Shown: piece after piece, positions 7,068 through 46,398 of the stretch
How the letters are laid out: every line of letters begins with the position of its first letter
How positions within the stretch are numbered: the first letter of the stretch is position 1
Assembly: GCA_013306675.1 (NCBI GenBank)
Contig: JABLUY010000018.1
Location: 62,001 to 126,000, forward strand
From: Thraustochytrium sp. TN22
Lineage: Eukaryota > Sar > Bigyra > Thraustochytrida > Thraustochytriidae
DNA length: 64,000 nucleotides
Reading direction: 5' to 3'
Program-made: the position numbers and the translations under genes
The notes under the pieces: model-generated
The model's database searches: none
Seen by the model: only the letters and a program-made list of their open reading frames with translations
Told to the model about the DNA's origin: nothing

Positions 7068-7098
<31 letters not shown>

Positions 7099-15927: not shown

Positions 15928-15958
<31 letters not shown>

Positions 15959-24037: not shown

Positions 24038-27000
24038 TCAGGGTAGCGCGGGCGACGAGGGGACCATCGCCAGGCTCGACGGTGCGGAGTCCATCAGATC
24101 CTTGAGCTCAATCGGACCCTCCATGCCGGTTCCCTTCTTCGTGGCGCACTGAAGCAGGGCCTCACGCGCCGACTCGGCGTAGAGCCCGTCGATCTTGGTC
24201 GCCTGGTAGAGCGCCAGGCCCTTGATGTAGACGCTGTCGGTACCGCCTGCCTCGTCGGCGACCCGGAGAAAAGTCTTGAGCGAGGCCGCCCCGGTGAAGC
24301 CACGCAGAATGTTCTGGTGCAGCGCCTGACAGTAAGCCACATGCGGCACGCAGGCCGGATAGGCCTTGGCGTACTGCTTGAGAAGCTTCATGATCTGCTT
24401 CAGGTGCCGCGTGGCCTGGCGGCGGATCGCGGGTACCGAAGGGGCAACCTGAACCGCGCCGTTCCGGTACACGCCAGCCCGGTCGTCGCCCGGCATGATC
24501 TGTGAGAGGCTGCGCCGCGTCTCGCGCGAGACGCCGGCCAAGGGGCGGCGGCTTTTGAGCAGCGGTGTGCCCTGCAGGCTCTCCGAGAGTGCCGTAACGA
24601 GGAGTGCGGCAGTGTGAAAGCGCGTGATGGGGAGGTCCGTGAGGTCAGTACTCTGCAACGCGGCGATGCCGCGGATTGCCGCGCCCATGGCGAGCTCCTG
24701 GTTGCCGTAGCGCCGCAGGAGCAGCAGTGCAAACGCAATATGGACCTCTGGGTCCTCCATGGCGAAGAACCTCTTGGCGCGATTCGCGATGTCCTGGCTG
24801 AGATCGCCCGGTGCCAGTCGCGCCACACGCTCCAGGCAGGCCTCGGCCACCTTGAAGTCGCCCACCAAGCAGGCGGTGCGTGCCGCGAGCGCCAGAATCA
24901 TATAGTTGGGCGCTGCCAGCGACATGCGCTCCACGTTGGCCTCGAGCATACGTTTGGCCGCCGTGAGCTTGCCCAGTAGCACCTGTACGGTAATGGACAG
25001 AACGGTGGACTCCATGAGCAGCCGCTCGAGACTGAGGAAGTTGCTCGTCCATAGTGCCTTGCGCACGCGGTCGCTGGCCTGCTTGAGGTCGCCAACCATG
25101 GTGGAGAACATGGCGGCCTGCAGGCGCACGAGCGCCTGCGTCTCGGAGTCCTCCACCTTGTTGGACGCATCGATGAGCAAGGCGGCCGTCTGAATGTGGT
25201 CACGCGCCATGTCCATCATGCCGGGCGCGCCCACGCAGACGTAAAAGGTGGCCACGAAGGAATACGTGCGCGCCAGACGCGCCGTGGCGGCCTCCAGGAG
25301 CGCAACGTCCGCCTCGTCGGACTCGCGCAGCAGGCCCTCTGCGGCGCGCGCAAGGTCCAGCGCGTTCAGCCGGAACTCGAGCGCTGACGAGTGCTCACGG
25401 TTGTGGTTGATCTTGGACAACATCTCGTAGCACGCCGACGCCTCCACGAGGAGCTCCGCGTCCCGGCCCGACACAATATCCTGGAAGGCCTCCTGCTCCT
25501 TGACCAGGTGCAGCTTCTGGCGCCGCTTCACGCCGAAGAGGCTGCAGACGTTCACGTCGTCGAACTCGTCCGAGGCGCAGTGCAGGTCGGCGTCTTCCAG
25601 TGCAGAAAAGAAGTAATCTTGAGCGTCCGGCGCCTTGCCCAAGAAGAGGAGCGACTCGCCCACGCGCCGCTTCCAGCCCACCTTGCGCGCCAGCGGGATG
25701 TCGGCCGTCACCTCCGGCTCGCGCGAGTCTACATCAATGAGCCGCGAGTAGCACATGAGCACCTGCTGCATAGCATGCGCCTCAAGCGCCACCTTGCCGG
25801 CCAGCTCCGAGAAGTGCACCGCCTTGGCAAAGTCCTCCGCTAAGAAGTAGTTGGTCGCAAGCAGAAAGTACACGGGCTCCAGGTAATCCTTGTTGCGCGT
25901 CTCGTGAAACTGCGCCAGCTGCCGATGCAGGTCCTTGCGGTTCTGAAAAAGCAGCAGATTGTACGCGCTCTCGCGCAGCATCGCATTTGTGAAGCGGTAG
26001 TGGTACATCATGTTGGCGTCGCGTGACAGCAGGCCGTCGGCAACCAGCGTGGCGATGTCCTGAGTCAGCTGGTCGATCACCTCTGCGTCGTCCGCCTCAT
26101 TCCCCTTGCGCGGCATGAGCGCCACCAGCTCCGTTTTCTGAAATTCTGTGCCAATGACGGCCGCCATCTTGAGCGCCAGCTGCTGCGACGGCTTGAGACG
26201 GTCCAGCTTACTGGTCATGAGCGCCGACACCGTGTCGGGCAGGCCAAAACTGCCTTCCTGCGCCTTTTTGGAGAGCCGCGCGACGCCCCGCTCCACGGAG
26301 ATCATCCCGTCCGTCACCATCAGCTTGGTGAGCTCCTCGGAAAAGAGCGGATGGCCCGAGCTCTTCTCCATTACGGCGCTCAACGCCTTGTCCGGGACCT
26401 CCTCTACCTCCAGCCATTTGCACATGCCCTCGCGCACCTCTTCCTGCGTCAGGTTGCTCAGCGGTAGATGTTCATAGTTTGGCAAGATGAGCCCGTCCTC
26501 GATGTGCATGAGGGACCGCACCGACGCGAGGAGTAGCATTGGCCGCGTCTCCATAGCGATCTCCTGCAGGAGCTGCAGGGAGAGCGGGTCCACGAACTGC
26601 AGGTCTTCCACCAGCATCACCAGCCTGTCCGGTACCAGCTGGATGCGCTGCGCCCCGCTGCGCATGCGGTAGCTGCTTCGAAAGCGGCTGCCTGCGGGCA
26701 GGCTGCCGAGGCTCGGCGCCGGGGACAGGCCGCCAGTGCCCTCCATCCCGTCCGCCGTCTTGCTCGCCAGATGCTCCTGCACCTTGGTCAGAGCTCCGGG
26801 CGAGGTCACGGCAGCGCTCCCGCTGCTTTCACTTCCATCGCTGTTGCTCTCAGTGCGCGAAGCGGACCGCCCGCGCATGCGCTTGCGCATCCCGGTCGTC
26901 TTGTGCGAGTCCTTGTCAGACCCGCGTACAATGGCCATGGACATATTCATGCGTCCAGCCGAGGACGTTACGGGCCCCGCCGTCAGGCCGCCGCCGCCCA

Positions 27001-29968
27001 CCGCAGCGGGCCCCGACGCAGCGCCGATGGCCCCAGCTCCCGAAGCAGCCGCCGCGGGCGCTGCTGACGAACCCATTCCCTGAGGCATTCCCTGAGGCAT
27101 CTCCAGACCGAGCCTGCTGAGCGCCTTCGTCTGCCTGCCCAGATGCGTGCCAAATTGGTCCAAGAGGTCACGCACGGCGTCGAGGTCCGCCACGGTCTTG
27201 CCGACGACCTCCTTGATGAGGCGCATACGGTTCTGCGCGCGCACCTCCTTCTTCATCTTTGCTGTCGTCTCCGTATCTTCGCTCTGCATGAGATCCGGGA
27301 TCAGCACGCTCAGCAGCGGGTACATGTCCTCAAGGTTGTCCTTGTCCACAGGGATCATGTCACGAATTACCTGTTCGCGGAGATCCTCCGGCAGCGTTGC
27401 GAGCGGAGGCAGGTCGTCCGCGGTCACCTTGCCAGGCGTCGTCGGTGACGGATTCAGCGGGGTGTCCATGGTCGACACGCTCGGACGCTCGGCCCCAGGT
27501 GAGCCAATGGTTCGTGATCCGCCATTGGCTCCGATGCTACTCCCACCCAAACCACCGCCCACAATATGTTCACCGACGCCAACACTCATGCTGCCGCCAC
27601 CGCCGTGGGCTTGCTCGGACAGGCCCATGTAACGCAGAAGCTCGGGTGGCGCCTCGCTCACGGATTCCGTCGCGGACTCTGTCGGCGAGTTCTCGTTGCC
27701 GCCCCTCGAACCATGGCTCAAAGCGCCTGTCACATTGGAGCGAAACGCCTCGATCTCCTCAAAAAAGGCCCTCGGCAGCAGCTTAGAGAACAGTTGCTCC
27801 GAGATCTGCGCCGGTACGCTCAGGGCAATGCCCTCGAGTGCCGGCTGCTGGCATGCCGCCCAGATCTGGTACCGTGTGCCTACCACCTTTAGGTAGTACC
27901 TATGCACAAGCTGCGACATGATGGAGCGAAATAAGTAGAACGCAGTGGAGCTCTCCGTGTCCACGCCCTTGCCAAAGAGCACCGCGCACTTGTGCGACTC
28001 GGCGATCGCGAAGGCCTCCTGCATGAGCCGCGACTTGCCGATGCCAGCCTCGCCCGAGATGACGATGGCCTCGTTCGTATCCGACTGCAGGTTGAGCCGC
28101 CTCAGGGACTCGGCGATGGTGTCGATCTCCATCTTGCGTCCCACAAAGGGAGCATCCGCGGTTCCCTGGTCGAAGCCCATCTCCACGCGGAAACCAAGCG
28201 GCCGATACACCTTGACCGGTTCGTCCTTGCCCTTGACCTTGAGCATCTCCGGTTCGCCAAACTCCACCTGATGGCAGGAATCGCGGTAAGTATGCTCGCC
28301 GCACAAGACGCCCACCTTGGCAGCGACCATGTACCGCGCCGCCAGGTTTACCAGTGTGCCGTGCAGCGTGTACTCGCATCGAATGCCACCGCCGGCCGTT
28401 CCGCAGAAGACGCGCCCGCTTGTCACACCGATAGATGCACTGAGCGCCGTGCCGTCGTCGTTGACAAGCTTGGACACCCCTGTGCAAATGTCCATGGCCG
28501 ACTTGGTTGCGCGCACCGGGTCATTCTCGTGCATGAAGGGCGGCAGACCAAAGGCTAGCAGCAGGCCGGCACCCTTATCGTCCACGATGAAGCGGCACAG
28601 TGTGCCCTCGTAGGCATACACGTGCTTTTGCACCACGGTAACCGCCTTGTGGATGAGCGCGAGGTTATCACGCGACTTGAAATGCAAGCCCTTGAGCCGG
28701 CAGAACAGCGTTGAGCACAGTCGCAGTTCCGAGAACCACAGGCTCTGGCCCGCATCAATGGCCTGCAGGACGGGCCGCGGTACGTAGCTGCGCAACGTCT
28801 CCTGCATGCGCACCAGCTCGGCGTGGTCTTCGCGAAGCCGAAGCAGCGATGCACTCACCAGTGCCTTGTTGGCCAGCTCCAGCGGCTGCACCAAGCGGTC
28901 CACGCGGAAGTTCCCGCTCCGGAGAGACTCGCCCACACAGCTCTCGGCAATGCGCTCGTACGCCGCTTTCGCCATGACAACCTCTCCGGCGGACGCCTCC
29001 GGCTCGGCCGACCCAATCTGCTCGATCGGGTCGCCCGTCACAACGTACTCCCACCGGTTGTAGCGGCCGCCCACGTGATAGCTGATGACGCGCCCAGCGC
29101 CCACGCCGCAGTGGATGGAGAGCTGCACACCGCCCGCTTTGAGATCCAGCTTGAGCAGGTTAAGGCCCACCTGAACGCAGCTCAGGGTTGCCTCCTCGAG
29201 GCTGTCCCCGAAACTTGATGATGGGAACACCACGAGGATCGCGTCTCCGGCGAACTTGATGACGTCACCGCCCTTGGAGCACACCTCCAAAACCATCTTC
29301 TCCAGTGATTTGCCGATGTACGCCGACAGGTTCTCGGCTGCATTTGCTGCGCAGTTCAGGTCCTTGGCCAGCTTCTCGGCGAGACTGGAGAAGCCGGAGA
29401 TGTCCGCAAACAGGACCGCACCGTCAAATTCCTCCGAGAACTCCACCAGCTTACGCTCACCTTTGTTCTCCAGATGGTGCTTGATTACCCTGGCCGGCAC
29501 CAAGCTCGCGAGCAAGCTGAGGTTGCGCATGGCCTCCTCTGCATCGCGCGTGGCGATCAGACTGATGCGCGCCTTTACAGGCGCCTCCATCGCCTGATCC
29601 AACGCTGGGTCATAGTAGCTTACGCCCTCGTCCTCCTGCTGCGCCCCTCGGACATCGGCTTTGGCGTCATCATTATCCTTGTGCTTTCGCTCCTTCTTCC
29701 CCTTCGTCACCTCTTCCGTTTCCTCGTCCTCCTTCTCCTCTACCTCCTCGTCCTCCTTCTCCTCGATATTGCCGGCCATCATTTCGCCAGCCTCCGCCTT
29801 GATCCCTGCATGCTGCGTCACCTGCACGGACGGGTCGGCAGTCTTCCGCAGAACGTCGTCGTCCATGATGGCGATGCCCTGGTCCTCTCTGAGCTTTCCT
29901 GTGCTCATCGCCTTCTCTTCGGCGATCAGCTCCTGCACGTGCGGCGCCTCGCTCGCCTCGGACGCCAT
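24038..29968 (-). CDS. ADCY10: Soluble adenylyl cyclase (ADCY10-like): two cyclase domains, STAND-type ATPase, long helical tail
   Basis: 1976 residues from one intron-free frame. After an acidic, charged leader (1-140) comes cyclase domain 1 with the metal aspartates in VLFADISGFSSL (about 181) and KFAGDAILVVF; cyclase domain 2 (about 415-590) has lost them but keeps the VNLAARYM Asn/Arg pair, as in mammalian soluble cyclase, which works as an intramolecular C1-C2 pair. An NTPase follows: Walker A SGEAGIGKS (about 637) and Walker B-like LVMLVEDLQF (about 1118), with a roughly 350-residue disordered insert between them; then helical TPR-like repeats to the end. This order defines the ADCY10 family, which makes cAMP in response to bicarbonate in cilia, flagella and cytosol. 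Start: first in-frame ATG, 29968. The next gene upstream (MYCBPAP) is also ciliary. Confidence 0.93.
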   Translation of the reverse strand: MASEASEAPHVQELIAEEKAMSTGKLREDQGIAIMDDDVLRKTADPSVQVTQHAGIKAEAGEMMAGNIEEKEDEEVEEKEDEETEEVTKGKKERKHKDNDDAKADVRGAQQEDEGVSYYDPALDQAMEAPVKARISLIATRDAEEAMRNLSLLASLVPARVIKHHLENKGERKLVEFSEEFDGAVLFADISGFSSLAEKLAKDLNCAANAAENLSAYIGKSLEKMVLEVCSKGGDVIKFAGDAILVVFPSSSFGDSLEEATLSCVQVGLNLLKLDLKAGGVQLSIHCGVGAGRVISYHVGGRYNRWEYVVTGDPIEQIGSAEPEASAGEVVMAKAAYERIAESCVGESLRSGNFRVDRLVQPLELANKALVSASLLRLREDHAELVRMQETLRSYVPRPVLQAIDAGQSLWFSELRLCSTLFCRLKGLHFKSRDNLALIHKAVTVVQKHVYAYEGTLCRFIVDDKGAGLLLAFGLPPFMHENDPVRATKSAMDICTGVSKLVNDDGTALSASIGVTSGRVFCGTAGGGIRCEYTLHGTLVNLAARYMVAAKVGVLCGEHTYRDSCHQVEFGEPEMLKVKGKDEPVKVYRPLGFRVEMGFDQGTADAPFVGRKMEIDTIAESLRRLNLQSDTNEAIVISGEAGIGKSRLMQEAFAIAESHKCAVLFGKGVDTESSTAFYLFRSIMSQLVHRYYLKVVGTRYQIWAACQQPALEGIALSVPAQISEQLFSKLLPRAFFEEIEAFRSNVTGALSHGSRGGNENSPTESATESVSEAPPELLRYMGLSEQAHGGGGSMSVGVGEHIVGGGLGGSSIGANGGSRTIGSPGAERPSVSTMDTPLNPSPTTPGKVTADDLPPLATLPEDLREQVIRDMIPVDKDNLEDMYPLLSVLIPDLMQSEDTETTAKMKKEVRAQNRMRLIKEVVGKTVADLDAVRDLLDQFGTHLGRQTKALSRLGLEMPQGMPQGMGSSAAPAAAASGAGAIGAASGPAAVGGGGLTAGPVTSSAGRMNMSMAIVRGSDKDSHKTTGMRKRMRGRSASRTESNSDGSESSGSAAVTSPGALTKVQEHLASKTADGMEGTGGLSPAPSLGSLPAGSRFRSSYRMRSGAQRIQLVPDRLVMLVEDLQFVDPLSLQLLQEIAMETRPMLLLASVRSLMHIEDGLILPNYEHLPLSNLTQEEVREGMCKWLEVEEVPDKALSAVMEKSSGHPLFSEELTKLMVTDGMISVERGVARLSKKAQEGSFGLPDTVSALMTSKLDRLKPSQQLALKMAAVIGTEFQKTELVALMPRKGNEADDAEVIDQLTQDIATLVADGLLSRDANMMYHYRFTNAMLRESAYNLLLFQNRKDLHRQLAQFHETRNKDYLEPVYFLLATNYFLAEDFAKAVHFSELAGKVALEAHAMQQVLMCYSRLIDVDSREPEVTADIPLARKVGWKRRVGESLLFLGKAPDAQDYFFSALEDADLHCASDEFDDVNVCSLFGVKRRQKLHLVKEQEAFQDIVSGRDAELLVEASACYEMLSKINHNREHSSALEFRLNALDLARAAEGLLRESDEADVALLEAATARLARTYSFVATFYVCVGAPGMMDMARDHIQTAALLIDASNKVEDSETQALVRLQAAMFSTMVGDLKQASDRVRKALWTSNFLSLERLLMESTVLSITVQVLLGKLTAAKRMLEANVERMSLAAPNYMILALAARTACLVGDFKVAEACLERVARLAPGDLSQDIANRAKRFFAMEDPEVHIAFALLLLRRYGNQELAMGAAIRGIAALQSTDLTDLPITRFHTAALLVTALSESLQGTPLLKSRRPLAGVSRETRRSLSQIMPGDDRAGVYRNGAVQVAPSVPAIRRQATRHLKQIMKLLKQYAKAYPACVPHVAYCQALHQNILRGFTGAASLKTFLRVADEAGGTDSVYIKGLALYQATKIDGLYAESAREALLQCATKKGTGMEGPIELKDLMDSAPSSLAMVPSSPALP

Positions 29969-30884
29969 AGCAGCAGCTGCAGCAGCGTGCGCCGCGCGCA
30001 CGCACACGGCGCGCGCGCGATCTCAATGGCGACTTTCTATTCCTGCCGCCGCCGGCCTGCTCGCGGCCGGCCTCGCTCTCACCTGCACGCGGCCTCGCGT
30101 GGCCGCAGCCCGCGCGAGCAGGTCGCTCGCGCGCTCACGTCCTTCTTTCTTGCCTGCCTGCCTGCCTTCCTCTCTTGCGGCTCCGGCCGTCGCACACCTG
30201 GCCAGCCGGCGAGCCAGCCAGCCAGCCAGCAAGTAAGCAAGCAAGCAAGCCTTCGAGCAAAGAGAAGAGAGCCTGGCCAGGTGTGTGCACACCAAGCTCC
30301 GTTTCGCTGCCTGTTGAAACTCATGCGTTGAGTGGCGTTGCGTGCCACCTCTCCTCTCTCGTTCTTTCCATTCATCCTTCCAGCGAACTTAGCTTCCAAC
30401 TTAGAGCGGACGGCTCCAGGCATATCCTGCCAATGGAGTGCCAGCGCTGACAGTGAGTGCTTGCCCCGACTCGGATAACTATAACTGCACGGACTTGCGC
30501 GCATGTCGCACTTGGCAGGAGCCGCTGGTTCGGAAAATTCAACGGTACTGCCCGTTCAATACTACTCTAGCTAGGTAGCTAGGTAGCTCTACTAGCTGAG
30601 GCCTAGAGATCGCTCGTCGGTGGGAAGCCGTTTCCCGGAGGTTGGCTCAGGCTGCGGCCGCGCGCGCAATCTGCCACGAAGATGCGTGCGAGCAGGAGAG
30701 AGGATGTGGTCAGAGAGGCCAAGAAAAGGGGAAGGGAAGCTTGGCTCCTCCAACGTCGTCACGCCACTGACATGAGGATGAGGACACAGGGTTTTACTTG
30801 ATTGTTTTCTGTAAAAGTGCTGGTGACTTGGGAATGTCGCCGGCGCGGTCGCTGAACGGGAGTTTGGGTCAGGCTGGAGTTTCG
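29969..30884. other. Intergenic region between adenylyl cyclase and MYCBPAP-like genes
   Basis: 916 bp, head of one minus-strand gene to tail of the next. The part next to the cyclase start is G+C-rich with (CCTG)n and (AGCC/AGCA)n short tracts near 30150-30250; the rest (30300-30880) is nearer to even base use and includes a (TAGC)n-like stretch, TAGCTAGGTAGCTAGG, at about 30567-30590. No gene supported. Confidence 0.5.
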
Positions 30885-33800
30885 TCAGGTCAGACTTGCT
30901 TCACCCTCAAGCGCGGCCTCCGACCCGGACGAGGGCTCCGCCGGGCTGTCGGTCAGCGTGGAGACCGCCAAGCCAGGCGGCGCGACCAGGGGCACCAGCG
31001 CAAGCAGCTGCCGCATAGCCATGCTGTTGACGATCGTCTGCATGTCTTGGAGGTGTAGAGGGTCCTCCTCCTGGGTCTCCCCGTCGTTGTCCGCGTCGGT
31101 GCTGGGCGCCTCACCGGCTGCCGCCTCCGCTGCAGTTGCCGCGTCCTGCTCATCCTCGTCGTCATCCTCGTCGCCGTTCTCGCTGCCCGCCTCTTCGGCG
31201 CGATCCTCTTCGTTCATCTCCTCCTCGAGCGCGTCGTCCTCGTGGGCGCCACTCCTGAGAATCTCCATCTGCGACCAAACCTCGGGTGCCGCCGCCACCA
31301 CGCGGTGCCCAGCCTTGCCAAACTTGCGCAGCAGAAGGCGCGTGCCGTATTCGGAGTGCGCTGCGTCCAGCATGAGAATGGATCGCACCGGCTCCGCGCC
31401 GAGGCGGTCAGCAAAGTCCGTCAGCTCGCGCCGCACTGTCCTCGTATCCTCCGCGTCAAAGACCTTGAGCGTTGTTCCCTGCAGACGAGCCAGCTCCAAG
31501 ATTCCTCGAGCATGCTCTAGCTCGCGATCAGCGATTGTCGCGCCGGCCTCACTTGCTGGTTTGCATACCGCCTCCGCGTCGCTCGGGATAATTAGCGCCA
31601 CGGGGTCGCCTTGTGCCAAGGCGAGCAGCCTCTCCCTGGCGGCGGGCCCTAGCTCCGCGACCGCGCGGCGAAAGAGGCCGGCCAGTTCGCCCAGAACGAG
31701 AATCGCCGCGGCGTTCCCGCTCCGCAGAGTTCCCTCCAGCAAACGCAACTCGCGCACAAAGCCAGCCTTTGACGGGTCGACCTCGGACTCGAACTCGGAC
31801 TCGGACTCGTCCTCGTCCGCGCTCCCGCTCGACGCGGAACCCTCCGACGCACCGGACTCGCTGCCCGAGTCAGCCTTGTCCTCCGACTGTGCCGCCTCGG
31901 AGGCCGCCACGCTCTTCTCGTCCTCGTCGTCATCTTCGTCGTCTTCGTCGTCTTCATCCTCGTCCTCTTGCTGCTGACTCGTCGCATGGTAGCTGGGCCC
32001 CTCGCCAGGCGGGTATGCGCTAGCAGATCCACCCACAACAAGGACCACCTGCTCGGCGAGGACCCCAGCCGCGGCCTCGAGATCACGCTCGAAGCCGACG
32101 CCTGCCAGCTGCTCCAGCTCGGGCAAGACCAGGTCTTGCTCCAGCAGAACTTGCATGCTTGCCACGCTCTCGTGCACAACAATTTCCGTGTAGGTGGTAA
32201 GCAGCTCGCGGACGTCGCCGGTCTTGCGCACGCTTGAGAGCGCGTCCAGAACAAGCACAGCGACCTCGTCTGGATCTACCCTGACGCGGGCCACCGGCTC
32301 CGCGGCGACGTTTTCCTCGCCGTTCGGGGACATCCCCGTCTCCTTGTCTTCCTTGTCCTCGTCCCCAACCTCGTCCTCGTCCTCGTCCTCTTTGCTACCC
32401 TCGTCCTCATCTTCGTCTTCTTCCTCCTCGTCTTCTTCCTCGTCTTCCTCTTCCTCGTCACCATCCTCAGGGGTACCGCGGAGCAGCGAAACGCCCTCCT
32501 CGCCGTCCTCGAGACTTGAGACAAAGGTTACCTCGCGCCCGAGACGCGATGCTAGCTCGTCCACAACGCTGGTCACCGTTGCGTGGGCACCCCCCGCAAG
32601 GTCCGGCAGCGCGTCCACGATCAGCACGCTTGCGCAGCCTGCCTGAAGCAGCCACTCGACCGTCTTGCACAGTGACTTGAGCTTGATTTCCAGGTCCACC
32701 TCGTCTGGGACGGCCGTGTTACCCTCGCTGGCACGAACAGCAAGGTCGGCACTCAGGAGGACGCGCATGCCGACGAAGGTGGAGGCCTCTTTCGGGTCAA
32801 GGTCCGAGCAGCATTTGAAGCACGATCTGCCCACGCTAGCCAGCACCGGCTGCAAAGCAGCCTGTCGCAACGTTTCCGCGTCGGCGGCCAGCTGCGCCTG
32901 CATCTCGCCCGCCATAAGGCTCACGCCGGCAGTCGCGCGTCCGTGCAGTGTGAGCATCGGGTCCACCTCTTCATCAACGTCCCCAGGTTGCGCAGCGGGG
33001 CCTACATCGTCTGGCTCCGGGTGCTCCTCTCGCCACGCGTCCACTTGATCCGCAACCGCCAGTGCCATGGACAGCACCGTCTCCTGAGCACGAACCCAAG
33101 AAGACGCGACCTGCAGCGGCGGCCGCCGCATGTTCTCCGCGAGCGCCTGCAACGCGTCGATCTGCTCCTGCGCCTCCAGTTGCAGGCGCGCGTGCTCCTG
33201 CGCCAGGTAGTCCGGGTCCGACTGATCCGAGACGGGCGACTCCGGCTCCTGGGCCTCGTTCACGGCCTCGTCAACGCCTGCGCTGGCGCCGCCGTCCGGG
33301 GAGGCGTCCACGTCACCGCTAGTATCCGCGAGGTCGCCCTCTGCGGCCGCAGATGGGTCCTCGAAGCCCTCGACGGCATCCGCGCTTAGCTCCATGTTCT
33401 GGTCCGCGGCGGTGCCGTCCGCCTGCGACGGCGTTTCCTCGACGACGCCACCATCCGGGGTGCCCGCCTCGCTATTAGCCGCCTCGTGGCTGTCATCTGC
33501 CTGCGTGGCCTCCTCTTCGCCGTCCACGACCGTAGCGGCGCGCCACTTGGGCCACAGGGGCTCGCCTCGCGAGATGCGCTCTAACGCCACGCGCAGCGCA
33601 ACGAGCGAGGGCGCGGCCTGCCAGGCCTTAAGCGCGGCATCCGCCGTCTCTTGCAAGCCTCTCTCCCTCTCGGTGGCGTCAGGCACGACATCGTAGGCGT
33701 GCAGCTTGGCGAAAATGTCCAGAGCTAGGGCGGCAACCTTGTCTTCCAGTTCCGGGTGGTAGTAAAGGCCAAGCGCGCGGTTCTCGGCTTCGAAGCGACG

Positions 33801-36053
33801 GCGGCGGAAGGCAATGAGGTCGTCACCAGTGAGCCCGAACTCTGGGTCAAGGCGGGCGGCCTCCTCAGCCTCGCGGTCGCGCCTGCGTAGCACCCGTTCA
33901 TGGACGCTCTGCTCCAGCTGGCCACCCTGCGTGTGCAGGTCGTGCAGCGCGGCGAGGCGCTGCGGCCGCGCGGCATCGAGAGGGTTGCAGAGCGCGCGCA
34001 GTTCGAGTGCGAGGCCCGCGACCGGGGCCTGGGCTTCGGGTGTCGTAGACATGGTCCAGACTTGCTTCCAAGCGCCCGGGGCGGCGCTGCGGAAGCCAAA
34101 GGCGACCTCGAGGCTTTGCTGCGGCAGTACGACGCCTTCAGGTTGCGAGCAGTGGAAGAGCGCGGCGCTCTCGTCGCCGCACTCCGGGACGACGCGCGCC
34201 GCAGACCACCGATAGAAAATTGCCGTCGTGCCGGTGTTGTGAACCTGCACGATGGCGGTGGAAGCCTCGTTTTGAACCGCGGCGAAGGCCAGCACGAGCC
34301 CCGGGCCTGGGTCCGCGCCACGGCCTGCGCCAATGCCCACGGTGGCGGTCTCCACCGCCGAGGCGCCGAGGATCTCGCAGCGCGGGCCGGCCGGAAGGGC
34401 GGGTGGCGGCCCGAGGGCCGCACCGGCGAGCGCCTGCGCCGAGGCGGCCCGCGCCCGATCGTCTTCCGGCGAGGCGGACGATGGACGCGATTTCGGGGAG
34501 CTCGTGGGCTTGGCCTCGGCTGCGGCCACGAGCTCGGCGTCGTGCAACGCCTCGGCCTCGATACTGACGTAAGCCCACTCCAGCAGCGGCTCGCCGCGAA
34601 TGACCAGGGCGTCCGCGTCCTCGTCCTCCAGGCGGTGCGGCCGCAGCTTGCGCAGGTTGGCCGCGAGGCTGCGCTGGCGGCGCTGCAAGATGGGCGAGTC
34701 ACGCCAGGACGGCTTGGCCGGCCCGCCGAGCGCCGACGCGCGAGCGCCCTGCGCGTGCAGCCGCGGGATACGTACCATCTGCAGCTCATTCTTGGAGGAC
34801 TCGCTGACAGGGCAAAAGAGGCCGCTGAAAATGTTGCCCACGGCGACGTACCGCGTGCCCATGCCGCGCAGGCTCATCTTCCAGTACTCGGACCCGTGCT
34901 TTTCGTGGTGCGGCGTTGCCTCGCTGATGTAGTTGTACTCTTCCTGGCGCTCGCGGAAGGCATCGGCTCGCGAGATGACGAGCTCGTTCACGGTCTTGCC
35001 CGAGAGCGCACACATGGCGCGCTTGAAGCGCGCCCACTCGCGCTGCCACTCGGCGTGCGCCGCGAGGGCGCGCTCCTGCCTCTGCGCCATGAGCCGCTCG
35101 TGCGCGAGCATGCCGGCCTCCTTGCGTCGCCGCAATGCGTCCTCGCGCACGCGGCTCGCCTCGGCGCGCAGGCGCGTCTCCTCGGCGGCGAGCTGCCGAA
35201 CCTGCTCCAGGTAGGCCTGGCGCTCTGTGGGCGACGATGGCCGCGGGGCGTCATGCTGAAGGCTGCCGCCGGCCATGGTGAGCTCGCGCGAGCCGGCCGT
35301 GGGGTCGTTGAGCTGCGCAATCAGCTGTGCCTCCGAGCCGGCCGACGTTGGCGAGAAGCTGTGGCTACGATTCATGCGCATGTGCTCGAAGCGCGCACTC
35401 GCGCGCCGCGACGACCGTCGTGAGAGCCGCGAGCTGGGCCGGCTCAGCGCGTTGGACGATCCGGCCGTCGAAGACCGCGCGAGCCGCGTGAAGTCCTCCA
35501 CGGAGCCCAGAATCGAGTACGAGACCACCTGACCCTGCGCGTCGTAGCGCGGGCCGCTGCCGCTGTTGCCGACGAGGCCAGGCTTGTCCCCGCTGGCGCC
35601 GCTCCCTGAGACCATCGAAGCATGCACGGGCGAGGCGGCGCTGCTGCCCCCTTGCGAGCCTCCGCTGGCAGTCGTCGTGCACTTGCCGAGCGGCGTCTCG
35701 TACACGGTGGCCTTTTGCGGCTGGCCGGTGGGCGACCTCGCCTGGTTCGTCTTCACTTTGACCTCGCCCATGGCCACAGCCTTGCCCACGAAGACCTTCT
35801 TGCGCGTGCTCGCGATGCCCTGCTGGCCTCCGCGCGTGCTCCCCTGCCATGTCTGCTCCTTGTGCTCCAGCTGCTGCTCCTCCTCCTGCAGCAGCTCGAG
35901 CCTGTTCCTCGCCTCGCCCTCCTCCTCCTCCTCCTGCTCCCCCCCTTCCCTCGCTACGATTGCCTTCTCTGCGCGCTCGCTCACGCGCACGAGGATGCGC
36001 TTCTTGCCTGGTGGCGTTGCCGTGCCCAAGTGCTCCGCGCCCTGCGACGCCAT
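30885..36053 (-). CDS. MYCBPAP: MYCBPAP-like axonemal protein fused to a degenerate phosphoglycerate-kinase-like domain
   Basis: 1722 residues, no intron, start MASQGAEHL in a good context. The N-terminal two thirds follow MYCBP-associated protein: a helical Arg/Glu region, then EYWKMSLRGMGTRYVAVGNIFSGLFCPV (core GTRYVAVGNIFSGLFCPV) and a PapD/ASH-like beta domain (about 570-680, with VQVHNTGTTAIFYRWS). MYCBPAP is known from sperm and ciliary central-apparatus samples. From about residue 1085 to 1640 the chain reads like phosphoglycerate kinase: MRVLLSADLAV for the DFNVP strand, LCKTVEWLLQAGCASVLIVD for the SLPTIKYLL helix-strand, DELASRLGREVTFV, and VVLVVGGSAS for the GGAKV loop. The SHLGRP, NDAFG-HR and Lys of GGAK are gone, and three acidic linkers interrupt it, so catalysis is very unlikely. 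A pseudo-enzyme scaffold is my inference. Confidence 0.78.
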   Translation of the reverse strand: MASQGAEHLGTATPPGKKRILVRVSERAEKAIVAREGGEQEEEEEGEARNRLELLQEEEQQLEHKEQTWQGSTRGGQQGIASTRKKVFVGKAVAMGEVKVKTNQARSPTGQPQKATVYETPLGKCTTTASGGSQGGSSAASPVHASMVSGSGASGDKPGLVGNSGSGPRYDAQGQVVSYSILGSVEDFTRLARSSTAGSSNALSRPSSRLSRRSSRRASARFEHMRMNRSHSFSPTSAGSEAQLIAQLNDPTAGSRELTMAGGSLQHDAPRPSSPTERQAYLEQVRQLAAEETRLRAEASRVREDALRRRKEAGMLAHERLMAQRQERALAAHAEWQREWARFKRAMCALSGKTVNELVISRADAFRERQEEYNYISEATPHHEKHGSEYWKMSLRGMGTRYVAVGNIFSGLFCPVSESSKNELQMVRIPRLHAQGARASALGGPAKPSWRDSPILQRRQRSLAANLRKLRPHRLEDEDADALVIRGEPLLEWAYVSIEAEALHDAELVAAAEAKPTSSPKSRPSSASPEDDRARAASAQALAGAALGPPPALPAGPRCEILGASAVETATVGIGAGRGADPGPGLVLAFAAVQNEASTAIVQVHNTGTTAIFYRWSAARVVPECGDESAALFHCSQPEGVVLPQQSLEVAFGFRSAAPGAWKQVWTMSTTPEAQAPVAGLALELRALCNPLDAARPQRLAALHDLHTQGGQLEQSVHERVLRRRDREAEEAARLDPEFGLTGDDLIAFRRRRFEAENRALGLYYHPELEDKVAALALDIFAKLHAYDVVPDATERERGLQETADAALKAWQAAPSLVALRVALERISRGEPLWPKWRAATVVDGEEEATQADDSHEAANSEAGTPDGGVVEETPSQADGTAADQNMELSADAVEGFEDPSAAAEGDLADTSGDVDASPDGGASAGVDEAVNEAQEPESPVSDQSDPDYLAQEHARLQLEAQEQIDALQALAENMRRPPLQVASSWVRAQETVLSMALAVADQVDAWREEHPEPDDVGPAAQPGDVDEEVDPMLTLHGRATAGVSLMAGEMQAQLAADAETLRQAALQPVLASVGRSCFKCCSDLDPKEASTFVGMRVLLSADLAVRASEGNTAVPDEVDLEIKLKSLCKTVEWLLQAGCASVLIVDALPDLAGGAHATVTSVVDELASRLGREVTFVSSLEDGEEGVSLLRGTPEDGDEEEEDEEEDEEEEDEDEDEGSKEDEDEDEVGDEDKEDKETGMSPNGEENVAAEPVARVRVDPDEVAVLVLDALSSVRKTGDVRELLTTYTEIVVHESVASMQVLLEQDLVLPELEQLAGVGFERDLEAAAGVLAEQVVLVVGGSASAYPPGEGPSYHATSQQQEDEDEDDEDDEDDDEDEKSVAASEAAQSEDKADSGSESGASEGSASSGSADEDESESEFESEVDPSKAGFVRELRLLEGTLRSGNAAAILVLGELAGLFRRAVAELGPAARERLLALAQGDPVALIIPSDAEAVCKPASEAGATIADRELEHARGILELARLQGTTLKVFDAEDTRTVRRELTDFADRLGAEPVRSILMLDAAHSEYGTRLLLRKFGKAGHRVVAAAPEVWSQMEILRSGAHEDDALEEEMNEEDRAEEAGSENGDEDDDEDEQDAATAAEAAAGEAPSTDADNDGETQEEDPLHLQDMQTIVNSMAMRQLLALVPLVAPPGLAVSTLTDSPAEPSSGSEAALEGEASLT

Positions 36054-36539: not shown

Positions 36540-39500
36540 TCAAGGGCGCGGCTTCATAGGGCAGATGATCTCGTGCATGAGGCGGTCCTCGACGGTCATG
36601 CACTTGTCGTAGTTACACCACTCGCAGACGAGGCCAGTGAGCTTGGACGTGGCGAGGCGGCGCTCTTTCATGGCGTGCGTAGCGCGCTGCATGTAGCGCG
36701 CCTGCGTGCGCTTGAGCTTGGCAATGGCGGTGCAGTCCTGGCGAGTCTTGGCGAGGTGGCACGGCTTGCAGAGCGTCTGGAAGTCGTCCAGCGAGGCGTC
36801 GCCGCCGCCAAGGCGCACGGCGATGATGTGGTCTGCCTCCCAAAAGTAGCCCTCGTGAAGTGTCTGGTTGCAGAGCTTGGCCTCCATCGTAGGCCCAAGC
36901 ACGCTGCGCTGCAGCTCGCTCCAATGCAGGCGCGCGGTAGCGTCCGAGTCCTGCCCCTGGCGCACCATGTGCTTGCAGAGCACGTCGGAGTCGCAAAAGA
37001 GCGCGCGCCGCCTCTCCTCGGACCCATCTGGATGCGCGCGCGCGCGAAAGAACATGGCGCGAGTGTTCACCTTGCAGCGACGACAGATGCCGCCCTCGGA
37101 CTCGGATAAGTGCACCCTGGCCACCGCCGTGTAGCACTTGATTTGCCACGAGCGAAAGCAGGGCGCCGCACCGCCGCAGAACAAATCGCGCATTGTGCCG
37201 TGCAACACCAGGCGCTGCTGCTCGCTCTTGCGCTTGGTCTGTCCGCCAGGGCTCGTTGCCGCGGCGGTGCCTCTTTGCTTGGCGCCGGGCCCGCCATCCT
37301 CGTTGCCGTGGTCTTTGTCCGCACCACCCTCGCCTTCTTTCATGTCCACGTCCACGTCCACGTCCACGTCCGCGTCCGCATCCTCGTCTTCCTCGTCCGC
37401 CTCTGCGGTCGCCAAGGTTTCGCGGAGGCGCGCGATGCTGTCGTCCGTAGGAGAAAAGGTGTGCTGCGCCTGCGGGTACAGACAGCCGCAGTACAGGCAG
37501 AGAGGGCGGCCGGTCGCGGCCTCGAAGCCCTGCTGCACGGAGCGCGTCGTGAGCTGGATGCCGCGCGCATCCATGACGTCCCTGCTGTGCAGCATGATGA
37601 CGCCAACACCGTAGCCGTCCGGACCCCACACCCGGAGCGCGGCACGGTGCAGCTGGAAGGCCGGCGTAGAGCCGCGGTCAAAGGACACCACGTCCTGCTC
37701 GCTCGCCTTTTGCGCCGCCTTGCCTCGGTGGCTCAGCTCCTCGCTGAGCGGGATGCGCAATGGCCGCTCGAGCGCGCGCAGGCTGTTTTGCAAGATCACG
37801 CTCAGGCTCGTCCACTCCTCGACGAAGGCCTGCGCCTGGCGAAAGGCCACCGACGCCGAGTTGCGCATGGGCCGCGGGAGTCGCCGCGCGACCTGGGCGA
37901 GCTGTCGCCGCGCTTGCTGCTCATGCTGCACGTCCGTGCTGGTGTCGTCGGCGTTGGCGTCGGCCTGCGCGTCCGACTGTGCAAGCAGCTCCTGCGCCAC
38001 GAGGCGCACGTCGGAGATGGCAAAGTTGAAGCCGGCCGCCTCGAAGGTGCCAGGGGAGTTCTCGCGCGCCGTGGCCTCGCGTGTGGCCCAGAACACGTGC
38101 ACACGGCCCGTGTACGAGACGCGGAATGCGAGTGTCACAGACTCGGGGAAGCTGGAGCGCGAGCTGTCCTGCGTCTCGAGCTGGCTGCGCAGCGGCGAGA
38201 GCGCCATCGCGCGCGATGGCGCTCTCGCCGCCTCCTCGCGCCGCTGCGCCAAGAGCCCTGCCACGGCGCGCGACTGGCCGTGACACGTCGTCACGGCCAA
38301 GGTGCTCACCGTGGGCCCCGCGCGTCTCGCCAGCGTCGCCTGTGTTGGTGATGCCGGTGCCGGCATGATGGGCGTTTGCGTGGCCTGCGCGGCCTGCGCG
38401 GAGCCAGAACGCCGCCTGCCGCTGGCGCCACTGGCCAATGTCGAGCTTGGACCCTCCAAGGCAGCCTCCATGTTGCTGAGGCGCGAGGAGAGCATCGCCC
38501 AGAGTTGCTCGTCGAAGGTGCCCTCCGCCAGCACGTACTGGACGCAGACCGAGTCCTTGGCGCCGATGCGGTGCGCGCGATCTTCGGCCTGGAGCAGGAC
38601 CTGAGGCGACCAGTGCAGCTCCGACATGACCACTAGCGAGCTGCGCGTCAGCGTGACGCCCACGCCCATGGCCTCGATCGAGAGCACGAGCACGCGGGGC
38701 CCGGGCGAGTTTTCCGCCTGAAAGCTCTTGATGATGCGGTCTCGTTCTGGCACCGGGACCGACCCGCTCAGCATCTCACTGTGGAACATGCGGAAGCGCG
38801 AGCTGGCCGGGTCCTCGCCGCGCGCCGTCAGCAGCTTGGACTGGATGACCTCGAGCGCCTTGATGTGGCGACCAAAGACCAGGATGCGCTCCGACATGTC
38901 CAACGTCTGCAGCAGTTCCAGCACATAGTCCGCCACGAAGGGCGCCTTGGCCAGCCCCAAGCAGAGCAGCTCCCACGACATCTGCTCCGGCGCGCGCCGA
39001 TTCGCCAGCGCCATGGACGCCAGCTCCGCCCGGTACTGTTTAGTGCGCTGCGCCTCCGCCTCCGCCTCCGCCTCGACAACCTCTGGTGCCGTCCTGGCCG
39101 CGACGACCGCCGCTGGGTGTCTTCGCTCCCGCGCCGCCGTACTTTCCTGCGTCTGTGTCTGCGTCTGCGTCTGCCGGACTAGGCTCTGGCTCGCCGCCTC
39201 CTGGCGCTTGTCCTCATCCTCGACCTCGGAGGCCTTCGTGGTGACCGCGTTCGCCGGCTTCTTGGAGCCCGGCGCCCCGGCATGCCGCAGTGACGAGGTG
39301 GCCGCCGACACGTATATGATCTGCCGTCGCTTGGGCGGAAGGTCCTTGAGCACGTCCGCCTTCCTGCGGCGCACGACGTACGGCTCGATCACTGCGCGCA
39401 GCCGCCGCAGAGTGCTCTGGTTGGTGCCGATATATGTGTATCCGCGACGCGACCAGCCTTGCGCGTGCTGCCCGACCCTACTGCCTCTGCAGTACATGAG

Positions 39501-42500
39501 ACCGAAGCAGTGCGCGTCCCACATCTGGATGATGGACAGCATAAAGTCCGGCGTCGAAAAGGCTTCCTTGAGCGCGGACCAAAAGGCGCCCATCGCCCTG
39601 AGCTGCGCGAGCAGCGTCTGGTACGGCAGCGAAGGTGCTGTCGAGGCGGCGCCACTTGGGGCTGGCGGCGGCACGCGCACGCCGGCTACCACGCGCTCCA
39701 GCCGTCGTAGCACTGGATTGTACGTCTTGCGGCTGGCGCTCGTGTTCGCAAAGGTGGAGCGAGTCAGGCAGTGCAAATCGGCTAGAAAGAGGTGCAAGGC
39801 GCCCAGCAGGTCACGCCGATGTTGGTCCGGGAGCTGGTCCCAAAAGTCGCGTGCGCTCGGGGCGCTGGTGGAAAGCCGGAAAGCGACCGAGCACGGCTGC
39901 ATCCAGGGCGCCTCCGGCGTCAGCGTGAAGAAAGTGATGTCGCGCAGATGGCGCATGGGCCACCGGAAGATCTGTGCCAAGTGCGACTCCTCCATGTATG
40001 CCTCCTCGGAGCCGCGCTCGCACGCGCGCCAGCCCCAGCGCGCCATGAGCAAGTTCTTGTCGCGCTCGTGCAGCGCGATGCTGAGCTGCGCGTACAGCTC
40101 GAACGGGCGAATGAGCATAGGCGTCCCTGTCGCGAGGATCACGCGGTCGACCTTGCGCGCAACCAGCGCCAGCGCACGCGTCTGGAGCGAGTCAAAGGAG
40201 CGCGTCTTGTGCACCTCATCCGCGATCAGAAACCGTACCCCGCGCCGCACAAGCTCCGGGCACAGATCCTCCAGCATGCGATAGCTGATGACGATGATGC
40301 GCGCCGACTCCGGAATGACGGACCGCTTGTTGGTCACCACCGCCACCTCGTCTATGCCAATGAATGGCAGCCACCGTTCCACCTCCATTACCCACGACAT
40401 GCGCAGGGACGCTGGACACACGATGAGCGCCGGCCACCGCCCGGTGCGTAGGCTGCTCACCGCCATGGCGAAGAGCGACTGGAACGTCTTGCCCAGACCC
40501 ATTTCGTCGTACAGCAGATAGCGCCCGCTCTCACCCAGCATGCGCAGCACGCCGGCCCTCTGGTACGGCTTCAGATATCGGCGTCCGGTCTGCAGGAGCT
40601 GCTTCAGCTGCGCGTGTGCGGTCGGGTCGTCCTCCGCACGCTCGAGGCTCTCCGCACACATGCGCTCAAACTCCTGCGCGTCCACCTCGCTGTGTGAGAT
40701 GAGCGAACTCAGTGCCGCCCGGCCCTGCTGTGATGCGGAGCCCTGCTGCAAGGCAGGGTCTCGCTGCGGTGGGTCCTGCAAGGGAGCCAGGGTCTGGGCC
40801 AGCGTACCGCCACGCTGACGGTCCAACGCTGTGAGGTCTCGAAGCCCGAGTCCCCACGGCGGCGCTCGCGACGGTAGGTTCACGCCTTTTGCAAGTGGAA
40901 CCCGTTCCCGAGACCGCGAGCTGCCTCTGCTCGAGGACCGCGACCCAGCCGAAGATCGCGACTTTGAGCGACCCGGCCGTGCTTCGTTTTGCGCGATCGC
41001 CCACGGGTTCGACTCTTGCTGTTGCGCCATGACGGCGGGGGGCGCATTTGACGGAGGGCAGATGTCAGCAGAGCGCGCTTGCTCTTGCTCTAGCTCTAGC
41101 TCTTGCTCTTGCTCTTGCTCTTGCTCCTGTTCCTGTTCTTTTCGCTGCTGCACGAGCTCCAGCTCCTGTGCGTGTTGTGCGAGTTGTCTTTCTTGCGCGA
41201 GCTCTGCTTGCTCTGCACGTTGTGCGAGCTCTGATTGCTGGAGTGCGTGCTGCTTGAGCTTTGCTCGTTCCGCGTCTTGTGCGAGCTTCGGTTCTTGCAC
41301 GTGCTGATTCAGCTCTAGTTGCTGCTTGGTTTCTGATTGCCCTTGCGCATGCTCCACTAGTTTTGTCTTTTGCGCGCTCTTGGAATGCTCAGGTGGCTGC
41401 TCAGGTGCCATCAGTGCCATCGGCCGGCCCGCCTGCTTCGTTTGCTCTGCATGCTCTGCTTGCGATGCGTGCTTCGTGAGGTCTTTTTCCTGCGGAGGCT
41501 CTGCGGGCTCTATCCTTTGCTCAATTGCAGCCTGCTGCACCTGCGCCTGCGCCTGCACTGCAATGTGCTGACTGTGCCCACCCGTGTAGCCAAGGTCGCT
41601 CTTGAGGCGCTTTGGAGAGCGAGTGGCGCTGTCCGGGCCGGAGGTCAGGGCACCAGGGTCGCTGCGCGCCCTGCGAATGCCAACAGACGGTAAGCAAGGC
41701 GCCGCTGCTGCGGCTTGGTTCGACTGCGAGTACTGCGAGTCGGGGGAAAAGGTTAAACGACGTCGCCGTTCGAGATATCGTTCGAGCTTGGCACAAGCGC
41801 GCTCGAGCAACTTCTTGGTGGGCGACTCCCGCTTCGGATAGAACTGCAGCTGGCGGCGGTCTGGCTGCAGCGAAGTGGGGGGGCGGAACTGGCCAGACCG
41901 CCGCATGCGTTGGTGGCGCTGGTCCGTCGGGCGCTGCAGGCGAAGCCGCTGCCTGGGGCGCGGGGCCGGCAACACGCTCTCGGGCACCGGGCCTGCGCAG
42001 ACGCGCTTGCGTTCCGTGGCGCCGCGCGACGTGCAGCTGGACTGCGAGGCGCCAGCACTGGCCTCCTGCGCGCTAGAATTCTCGCTCAGCACATCTAGCG
42101 AGAAAGGTACCGGCGTGAGTGGCGCCTTGCACGCCTTGACAGCACCCTGGGGCGGTTCCGTGTGCCGCCGTTCGAGCCCCACGGCGCCTGCAGGCCGCTC
42201 AGCTGCCGCGGCGCCGCCACGCGGCGCGTCTGGGTCCCAGCGCCTCTTTTGACCTCCGCTTTGGCTCTGGCTCGATCGCTTGCGGCCTGAGCCGAGGATG
42301 TCGGACGCCTTGCGGAAGCCGTGGCTGCCCTGCGAGGCCTGCGAGGATCCCTCCGACCACCACGCCGGCCTCGGCAGCGACGACTGCGAAAAGTCCTCCT
42401 TGAGCAGGGACTCTCCGGTCCCTTGCGTCTCCTGCGTCGCCCGCCGCGACGTTGGCGCCGCCGTCGCCGCTGCCGGGCCGCTGAGCGCGCTGTCGGTGCC

Positions 42501-42641
42501 GCGCTGCGCTGCGCCACGGTTAGGTTGCGCGCCATGCCCGCGCATGCGCAACGCCTCGCCCTCGAGGTCCTCCCACGGCAGCGCGTCAAACCACTCGTCG
42601 CCGGCCGTCGCGCCCGCCGCCGCGGCCTCTTCGCCCGCCAT
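36540..42641 (-). CDS. ZRANB3: ZRANB3-like annealing helicase: SNF2 ATPase plus C-terminal HNH nuclease
   Basis: 2033 residues from the ATG at 42641 (GGCGATGG), no intron. A disordered N-terminal 640 residues includes long Gln/Glu-rich coil. The SNF2 motor has DEMGLGKT (about 712), motif II DEVH in place of the usual DESH or DEAH (about 810), LATGTP, then helicase C with RAHRIGAKDSV (about 1360), whose HRIGQ/A-x-DSV style is that of ZRANB3 and SMARCAL1. Near the C-terminus paired cysteines (CLYCGCLYP, CRRCKVN) lead into an HNH nuclease: EADHIIAVRLGGGD..DDFQTLCKPCH. SNF2 plus HNH is the ZRANB3 architecture, which restarts stalled forks, binds PCNA and nicks D-loops. The NZF finger of animals is not evident. 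A 40-bp palindrome lies inside the gene (38192-38231). Confidence 0.88.
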   Translation of the reverse strand: MAGEEAAAAGATAGDEWFDALPWEDLEGEALRMRGHGAQPNRGAAQRGTDSALSGPAAATAAPTSRRATQETQGTGESLLKEDFSQSSLPRPAWWSEGSSQASQGSHGFRKASDILGSGRKRSSQSQSGGQKRRWDPDAPRGGAAAAERPAGAVGLERRHTEPPQGAVKACKAPLTPVPFSLDVLSENSSAQEASAGASQSSCTSRGATERKRVCAGPVPESVLPAPRPRQRLRLQRPTDQRHQRMRRSGQFRPPTSLQPDRRQLQFYPKRESPTKKLLERACAKLERYLERRRRLTFSPDSQYSQSNQAAAAAPCLPSVGIRRARSDPGALTSGPDSATRSPKRLKSDLGYTGGHSQHIAVQAQAQVQQAAIEQRIEPAEPPQEKDLTKHASQAEHAEQTKQAGRPMALMAPEQPPEHSKSAQKTKLVEHAQGQSETKQQLELNQHVQEPKLAQDAERAKLKQHALQQSELAQRAEQAELAQERQLAQHAQELELVQQRKEQEQEQEQEQEQELELEQEQARSADICPPSNAPPAVMAQQQESNPWAIAQNEARPGRSKSRSSAGSRSSSRGSSRSRERVPLAKGVNLPSRAPPWGLGLRDLTALDRQRGGTLAQTLAPLQDPPQRDPALQQGSASQQGRAALSSLISHSEVDAQEFERMCAESLERAEDDPTAHAQLKQLLQTGRRYLKPYQRAGVLRMLGESGRYLLYDEMGLGKTFQSLFAMAVSSLRTGRWPALIVCPASLRMSWVMEVERWLPFIGIDEVAVVTNKRSVIPESARIIVISYRMLEDLCPELVRRGVRFLIADEVHKTRSFDSLQTRALALVARKVDRVILATGTPMLIRPFELYAQLSIALHERDKNLLMARWGWRACERGSEEAYMEESHLAQIFRWPMRHLRDITFFTLTPEAPWMQPCSVAFRLSTSAPSARDFWDQLPDQHRRDLLGALHLFLADLHCLTRSTFANTSASRKTYNPVLRRLERVVAGVRVPPPAPSGAASTAPSLPYQTLLAQLRAMGAFWSALKEAFSTPDFMLSIIQMWDAHCFGLMYCRGSRVGQHAQGWSRRGYTYIGTNQSTLRRLRAVIEPYVVRRRKADVLKDLPPKRRQIIYVSAATSSLRHAGAPGSKKPANAVTTKASEVEDEDKRQEAASQSLVRQTQTQTQTQESTAARERRHPAAVVAARTAPEVVEAEAEAEAQRTKQYRAELASMALANRRAPEQMSWELLCLGLAKAPFVADYVLELLQTLDMSERILVFGRHIKALEVIQSKLLTARGEDPASSRFRMFHSEMLSGSVPVPERDRIIKSFQAENSPGPRVLVLSIEAMGVGVTLTRSSLVVMSELHWSPQVLLQAEDRAHRIGAKDSVCVQYVLAEGTFDEQLWAMLSSRLSNMEAALEGPSSTLASGASGRRRSGSAQAAQATQTPIMPAPASPTQATLARRAGPTVSTLAVTTCHGQSRAVAGLLAQRREEAARAPSRAMALSPLRSQLETQDSSRSSFPESVTLAFRVSYTGRVHVFWATREATARENSPGTFEAAGFNFAISDVRLVAQELLAQSDAQADANADDTSTDVQHEQQARRQLAQVARRLPRPMRNSASVAFRQAQAFVEEWTSLSVILQNSLRALERPLRIPLSEELSHRGKAAQKASEQDVVSFDRGSTPAFQLHRAALRVWGPDGYGVGVIMLHSRDVMDARGIQLTTRSVQQGFEAATGRPLCLYCGCLYPQAQHTFSPTDDSIARLRETLATAEADEEDEDADADVDVDVDVDMKEGEGGADKDHGNEDGGPGAKQRGTAAATSPGGQTKRKSEQQRLVLHGTMRDLFCGGAAPCFRSWQIKCYTAVARVHLSESEGGICRRCKVNTRAMFFRARAHPDGSEERRRALFCDSDVLCKHMVRQGQDSDATARLHWSELQRSVLGPTMEAKLCNQTLHEGYFWEADHIIAVRLGGGDASLDDFQTLCKPCHLAKTRQDCTAIAKLKRTQARYMQRATHAMKERRLATSKLTGLVCEWCNYDKCMTVEDRLMHEIICPMKPRP
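38192..38231. repeat. 40-bp perfect palindrome without spacer, inside a coding region
   Basis: The left arm GCGGCGAGAGCGCCATCGCG is followed directly by its exact reverse complement. The palindrome is in the open reading frame of the ZRANB3-like gene and encodes an Ala/Arg/Ser/Pro/Met-containing stretch between the motor and the HNH part. Confidence 0.97.
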
Positions 42642-42698
42642 CGCCGCCGCGCCGCGCCCGCTGGCCCGGGCGGGCGGCGTCAAGGTTTTGCCTTGGCA

Positions 42699-45434: not shown

Positions 45435-45584
45435 TTCTGGTTCCCATAACAAGTAGTACTACGAAGAGAGAAGCCCCCTCGCCCACACACCCCGCCCCGT
45501 TGGGCTAGCTCCTACGCCTGGCTAGCCTTAGCTCGAGAAGCCTGCCTGCCTAGCCTGACCGCTCGCTTTCCCCCTCAGAGTAGG
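45435..45584. other. Short convergent 3' region
   Basis: 150 bp between the rhomboid stop and the end of the four-helix membrane protein; nothing notable. Confidence 0.4.
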
Positions 45585-46091: not shown

Positions 46092-46398
46092 CGCGCCGCG
46101 CCGCCGCGCCCGCGCGCCGCCCGCGCGATCGGAGTCTGGTCTGCGGCGCGGCGGGCGGCCAGCCGGGCCCGGAATTCCGCTGCGCCCCGGACTTCCGGGC
46201 CGGCGCGCCTCCCTCGCGGGCTTGGGCAAAACCGTTTGCGCCAAACCCGATCCCAGCCGCCGCGCAGCCGCCCGTCGCCGCGCGGCGCGGCGCCTCGCAC
46301 GGCCCCGCGGCGCGCAGGGTCGCCTCTCGCGCGAGCCGCAGCCTCGCGCGCTCCGGGTCTGGTCTGCCTGCGCGGGGAGGGGCTGCGACAGGGCCACC
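46092..46398. promoter_or_regulatory. Bidirectional promoter with palindromic E2F-like site
   Basis: 307 bp between divergent starts. It holds TTTGCGCCAAA at 46235-46245: GCGCCAAA on the plus strand fits the E2F/DP consensus TTTSSCGC. The plus-strand gene codes a SAP-domain protein that may be mitotic, which would suit S-phase control. No TATA box. Confidence 0.45.

Follow-up and report, generated by a model that had tools for sequence, protein, structure and literature searches.

The MYCBPAP gene and its neighbours

The window analysed here, a 64-kb stretch of DNA from Thraustochytrium sp. TN22, contains on its minus strand one uninterrupted open reading frame of 1722 codons (30885-36053), which runs from ATG to stop with no in-frame stops and encodes a protein of 1722 aa. 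Residues 325-701 (33951-35081, minus strand) form a MYCBPAP family domain, towards the end of which lies an Ig/ASH-like stretch, and the C-terminal part holds a stretch apparently derived from phosphoglycerate kinase (PGK) together with three acidic linkers. The match to PF14646 reaches 116.5 bits (E 1.9e-33), exceeding the curated cut-off of 24.5, and is the one match to this family in the 37.9-Mb genome; judged by homology, the presence of the domain in this 1722-aa protein is certain. In phmmer searches of the PDB, the protein matched 9ijj_v, the MYCBP-associated protein (E 1.3e-08), and 7n61_0I (E 2.4e-08), which is named FAP147/FAP213 in the PDB, as is 7som. We take the 7n61/7som and 9ijj structures to be those of Chlamydomonas and mouse, respectively. 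N-terminal to the domain, residues 174-193 (GQVVSYSILGSVEDFTRLAR; 35475-35534, minus strand) resemble residues 121-140 of 9ijj_v, a similarity that is not significant by itself (2.3 bits, i-E 210). The CFAP65-type Ig matches found by Pfam at about residues 597-661 are weak and below the cut-off (E 0.0051 and 0.099). The single frame, the MYCBPAP-style blocks and the PapD/ASH-like domain that the earlier note had read at this locus are thus borne out, the last by these sub-threshold matches.

The coding signal bears on the alternative that the frame is in fact a pair of genes, or the product of an assembly join. When synonymous codon choice was scored in 100-codon blocks, the frame came first, alone or tied, in 17 of 18 blocks when set against the other two minus-strand frames; the remaining block, the final one, covers just the last 22 codons and extends past the stop. 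However, the signal is weak over the C-terminal half, GC3 declines from 0.87-0.92 (residues 1-500) to 0.72-0.79 (residues 1001-1600), and a plus-strand frame outscores the gene in 3 of the 18 blocks (residues 101-200, 701-800 and 1001-1100), with one further tie. While the weaker codon bias, the falling GC3 and the plus-strand blocks would fit a join, the absence of stops across 1722 codons, the standing of the frame among the minus-strand frames and a fusion of the same two families in print for Tetrahymena (PMC7729029) argue for one gene, and we consider two genes or a misassembly extremely improbable.

Other recognisable genes surround the MYCBPAP gene. These include a RecQ-type helicase with RQC and HRDC (15310-19332, plus strand), an RCC1-repeat protein (48530-50779, minus strand) and an IF-2/eIF5B-like GTPase (51277-55014, minus strand). 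The adjoining frame on the same strand (24038-30007, minus strand; 1989 aa) contains two class III cyclase stretches and AAA_16 according to Pfam, and presumably resembles a soluble adenylyl cyclase of the ADCY10 type. A frame of 2047 aa (36540-42683, minus strand) combines SNF2, Helicase_C and a C-terminal HNH domain (Pfam), an architecture that we take to resemble ZRANB3. Three further minus-strand frames, at 3707-9463, 45550-48507 and 58499-61951 (1918, 985 and 1150 aa), had no Pfam match at E 0.001; they may be real genes, or frames that stay open by chance in DNA of high GC content.

The PGK-derived stretch and the segments that follow it

PGK was absent from the Pfam matches of the whole protein at E ≤1, and the C-terminal part was searched as three linker-free segments whose borders were chosen by us after that scan had missed it. 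For the first segment (residues 1085-1190), PGK (PF00162) was the sole family that Pfam listed up to E 10, at E 0.02 and 14.3 bits, which does not reach the cut-off of 27; residues 1094-1180 (about 87 residues; 32514-32774, minus strand) align to profile positions 7-88. Among PDB sequences, the top of three matches was the PGK chain 7zy7 (E 0.043). NCBIfam, which may hold no PGK model, listed three families for this segment, with HypE first (E 0.036) and PGK not among them. Given the borderline Pfam score and the silence of NCBIfam, and because an unrelated oxidoreductase chain in the PDB scores 16.5 bits (E 0.027) against the PGK profile, the score alone would be unconvincing in a blind search.

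Shuffled sequences and pieces of other frames provided a further scale. A two-sequence HMM built from the PGKs of the same genome gave the joined segments 15.9 bits, against 1.6 for the best of 300 shuffles, and a 33-sequence PGK HMM gave 11.0 bits against 3.7 for shuffled sequence. In a custom profile alignment, the first segment scored 54.5, a value reached by 0 of 400 shuffles (maximum 47.3), and its hhalign score against PGK was 36.4, with shuffles (n up to 60) at 13.8 ± 2.6 and a maximum of 23.5 (z about 8.7). Two HMMs and hhalign each also placed the segment at the top of a set of 121 pieces, the other 120 being 106-aa pieces of the same protein and of eight further long frames within the window; two of these 120 pieces overlap the segment. 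With the two HMMs, the segment scored 15.6 and 13.2 bits, compared with 1.3 and 2.1 bits for the best piece from the other frames; the corresponding hhalign scores were 36.4 and 19.2.

These comparisons support shared descent of residues 1094-1180 with the start of the PGK N-lobe, which is a statement on descent and not on enzyme status. The stretch could instead be a chance match within some other alpha/beta domain, as the borderline E values of the blind Pfam and PDB searches and the appearance of HypE in place of PGK would allow. Nevertheless, this is improbable given the first rank among 121 pieces under three scoring methods, an alignment that starts at PGK position 7, and the independent report of a Tetrahymena protein joining the same two families (PMC7729029). 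With PF14646 and PF00162 matching the same frame, the earlier claim of a MYCBPAP protein that also carries a PGK-derived segment holds.

Most of the conserved PGK residues have been lost from this stretch. Of the 17 columns within it that are invariant across 11 aligned PGKs, five are kept (G8, D16, V19, P60 and L81) and 12 are lost. RVDFNVP has become SADLAVR and SHLGRP has become DAL--P; in the profile alignment, N18 of DFNVP is replaced by alanine, R32 by lysine and H56 of SHLGRP by alanine, and a gap takes up the positions of G58 and R59. N18, R32, H56, G58 and R59 are established substrate residues of PGK. The loss is not total, because the DFNVP aspartate is kept and the R32 position is a lysine. 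The substrate residues given for the T. brucei enzyme agree with those positions (PMC4106842). Further along, the position of the GGAK lysine reads VGGSA in a low-confidence alignment, and the GGGDTA region was aligned by no tool. Loss of both the lysine and the GGGDTA loop is likely, and is graded no higher because these regions are aligned weakly or by eye. Of the motifs that the earlier note had listed as lost, SHLGRP stands, as does the decay of most conserved residues, while the GGAK lysine depends on that low-confidence alignment.

Elsewhere in the genome, on other contigs, there are two PGK genes whose motifs are intact; they cover the glycolytic role, leaving the present copy free to decay. 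At 515 and 613 aa, their open frames exceed the 379-position PGK profile in length, and these canonical PGKs possibly carry extensions, for example for organelle targeting.

The later segments appear by eye to fit PGK and are statistically not significant. The score of the candidate continuation at residues 1252-1358 (31980-32300, minus strand), where VGGSA stands opposite GGAK, is equalled by 54 of 400 shuffles, and that of the candidate C-lobe at residues 1425-1600 (31254-31781, minus strand), where IIPSD stands opposite LPVD, by 23 of 400. At E ≤10, Pfam gave no family for the second segment and a single DUF for the third (E 0.27), with PGK in neither; PDB sequence searches with both segments did not list PGK, and hhalign found no match between the later segments and PGK. 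In global mode, hhalign gave a result without meaning. NCBIfam returned no PGK for the whole protein or for the uncut domain of 536 aa. The latter drew 13 Pfam families at E ≤10, none of them PGK, and the best stretch of all 13 falls on an acidic linker.

Six sub-segments, compared with expected profile regions that were picked after reading the sequence, gave shuffle fractions of 0.204, 0.026, 0.132, 0.024, 0.666 and 0.462; for residues 1252-1358, one of two sub-segments has p 0.026 in its expected region. A chained score that includes the first segment was equalled by 0 of 1000 shuffles, and by 94 of 1000 once that segment was removed. Among 120 segment orders, the six best (167.0-169.3) are all wrong and lie above the true order (163.8). 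The hydrophobic tail at residues 1664-1706 (30936-31064, minus strand) had been read by eye as the PGK C-terminal helix, a reading that was rejected as unsupported (p 0.462 in the expected region and no hhalign match).

The case for an entire PGK domain is thus carried by the first segment, by inspection of the sequence by eye and by the Tetrahymena precedent. Alternatively, the MYCBPAP domain might be followed by a long C-terminal region that is acidic and largely disordered, with a fragment of the PGK N-lobe as its sole PGK remnant and no folded pseudo-PGK. The confinement of significance to residues 1094-1180, the later segments that fall short of it and the wrong orders that beat the true one all favour such a fragment. 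However, the later segments are, by eye, alternating hydrophobic and alpha/beta-like in PGK order, and p is about 0.025 for two of the six sub-segments, whose regions were chosen after reading the sequence; on balance, we hold the fragment reading to be somewhat unlikely. The PGK-like chain described in the earlier note is retained at residues 1094-1180, where PF00162 matches below its cut-off, whereas its GGAK-like, C-lobe and C-terminal segments do not attain statistical significance.

Relatives of the fusion

A related fusion is known from Tetrahymena, where a PGK review describes TTHERM_00856750 as a multidomain PGK with MYCBPAP-family sequence; in the available text, its authors view it as a PGK isoenzyme, possibly with added functions in conjugation (PMC7729029). 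Compared by description only, this protein and the window protein both unite MYCBPAP-family sequence and PGK in one chain, and they differ, on the same descriptive basis, in that the PGK part of the window protein is decayed and split by acidic inserts. A second relative is T. brucei PGKL (Tb927.11.2380), an axoneme-associated PGK-like protein that was judged inactive from lost residues (PMC4106842) and is described as dispensable in the procyclic form (PMC7729029). Like the window protein, the axoneme-associated PGKL has a PGK-like domain without key catalytic residues; however, its PGK is N-terminal and joined to a cyclic-nucleotide-binding-like domain, whereas that of the window protein is joined to MYCBPAP (PMC4106842). 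The cyclic-nucleotide-binding-like family was absent from the Pfam matches of the window protein to E 1.

FAP147 (7n61, 7som) and the 9ijj chain, with lengths of 976 and 932 aa, share the MYCBPAP core with the window protein. The PGK profile matches 52 PDB sequences up to E 10; 7n61_0I (FAP147) and 9ijj_v do not belong to this set, so these relatives do without the PGK part. The CPC1/enolase C1b module likewise places a metabolic enzyme on a central apparatus projection, although there the enolase is a separate subunit on a different projection and the PGK part described here is fused (PMC9113940). Relatives of the window protein were not found in viral contigs. Within the available text of the open-licence literature, no report of a MYCBPAP-PGK or FAP147-PGK fusion was found besides PMC7729029. 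The earlier belief that a domain of this kind had never been described in a MYCBPAP fails because the Tetrahymena fusion (PMC7729029) and the inactive axonemal PGK of trypanosomes (PMC4106842) are already published. The window protein appears to represent a known type of fusion in degenerate form, not a new kind of protein; what appears to be new is its decayed, acid-interrupted form.

Acidic linkers and a proposed role in the C2a projection

Three linkers of acidic composition interrupt the C-terminal part, as had been noted previously: residues 1191-1251 (32301-32483, with DNA tandem repeats at 32350-32468), residues 1359-1424 (31782-31979) and residues 1601-1663 (31065-31253), all on the minus strand. 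They include D/E runs of 20 at residues 1199-1218 and of 17 at residues 1363-1379, and the net charge is -168 over residues 701-1722 and +10 over residues 1-700. When the domain was searched against its own genome at E ≤1, at least 22 matches were obtained, one of them the gene itself, and 20 of the 21 non-self matches, whose E values were 3.8e-4 at best, lie over an acidic linker, with 81 of 123 candidates scored. Because at least 20 other genomic places match the acidic linkers, the charge may be ordinary drift of a disordered tail.

The MYCBPAP family has a described place in motile cilia. In Chlamydomonas, FAP147 forms the rachis of the C2a arm of the central apparatus (PMC9113940), and in mouse, C2a collapses when any one of three C2a proteins, including MYCBPAP, is lost (PMC13345628). 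The Chlamydomonas and mouse sperm studies disagree on the placement of C2a proteins (PMC13345628); in the available text of the latter, CFAP65 and CFAP70 are the two major C2a components and MYCBPAP is mentioned once, in connection with model building (PMC12297659). By analogy with FAP147 and mouse MYCBPAP, we infer that the window protein would be located in C2a (PMC9113940, PMC13345628). Mouse sperm C2a is described as predominantly negative, with repulsion between it and the spokes proposed, and most projection surfaces as mixed (PMC12297659). More generally, some central apparatus surfaces are negative and spoke heads are too, and here again repulsion has been proposed (PMC12297659, PMC9113940).

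Starting from what is read directly from the sequence, namely the MYCBPAP homology, the PGK-derived residues 1094-1180 with most of their conserved positions lost and the very acidic C-terminal insertions, we propose that the gene encodes the MYCBPAP/FAP147 of this organism, which would form the rachis of C2a, a projection of the central apparatus of the cilium, with a decayed, non-catalytic PGK at its C-terminus acting as a charged structural part. We would give this proposal an even chance of being correct. In it, the C-terminal phosphoglycerate kinase would no longer catalyse the PGK reaction, the core of the decayed domain would remain folded and carry three acidic loops, and this pseudo-PGK would serve as a negatively charged structural head of C2a. 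The negative part might then add to the repulsion that has been proposed to act between C2a and the radial spoke heads, which are themselves negatively charged.

The earlier note had suggested a structural or an ADP/ATP-sensing module; no support for sensing was found in the sequence. A sensing pseudo-PGK would still bind ADP/ATP or a phosphorylated ligand and report the energy state to the axoneme, and metabolic enzyme folds do occur in the central apparatus, among them the C1b enolase (PMC9113940) and the adenylate-kinase-like domain of HYDIN (PMC12297659). However, the equivalents of N18, H56 and R59 are gone from the aligned stretch, the GGAK lysine position reads VGGSA (at low alignment confidence), and there is no sign of a retained ligand site, which makes a sensor very improbable. 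The charged structural head remains our preferred reading. A bolder version of it, which we regard as speculative and unlikely, is that the MYCBPAP-PGK fusion was ancestral to ciliates and this lineage and that the enzyme was turned here into a non-catalytic, acid-looped C2a spacer, a pseudoenzyme acting by charge.

Should the domain prove to be a folded pseudo-PGK, it would be another inactive PGK tied to motile cilia besides trypanosome PGKL, and on a named projection, C2a. Together with Tetrahymena, it would suggest that the C2a rachis once bore a glycolytic enzyme, and local ATP supply versus structural reuse would be testable in a genetically tractable ciliate.

Other ciliary genes were also detected in this genome. 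CFAP65-type Ig domains gave 45 matches at E ≤0.01, the best at 84 bits, and the same search matched 2 of 14 prokaryotic controls, both below the cut-off. A radial spoke head protein scored 157.2 bits, and the match to the Hydin adenylate kinase lies below the cut-off. On contig C199 (1493-4814), the radial spoke head gene sits beside that weak, below-cut-off Hydin adenylate-kinase match, which is on the opposite strand.
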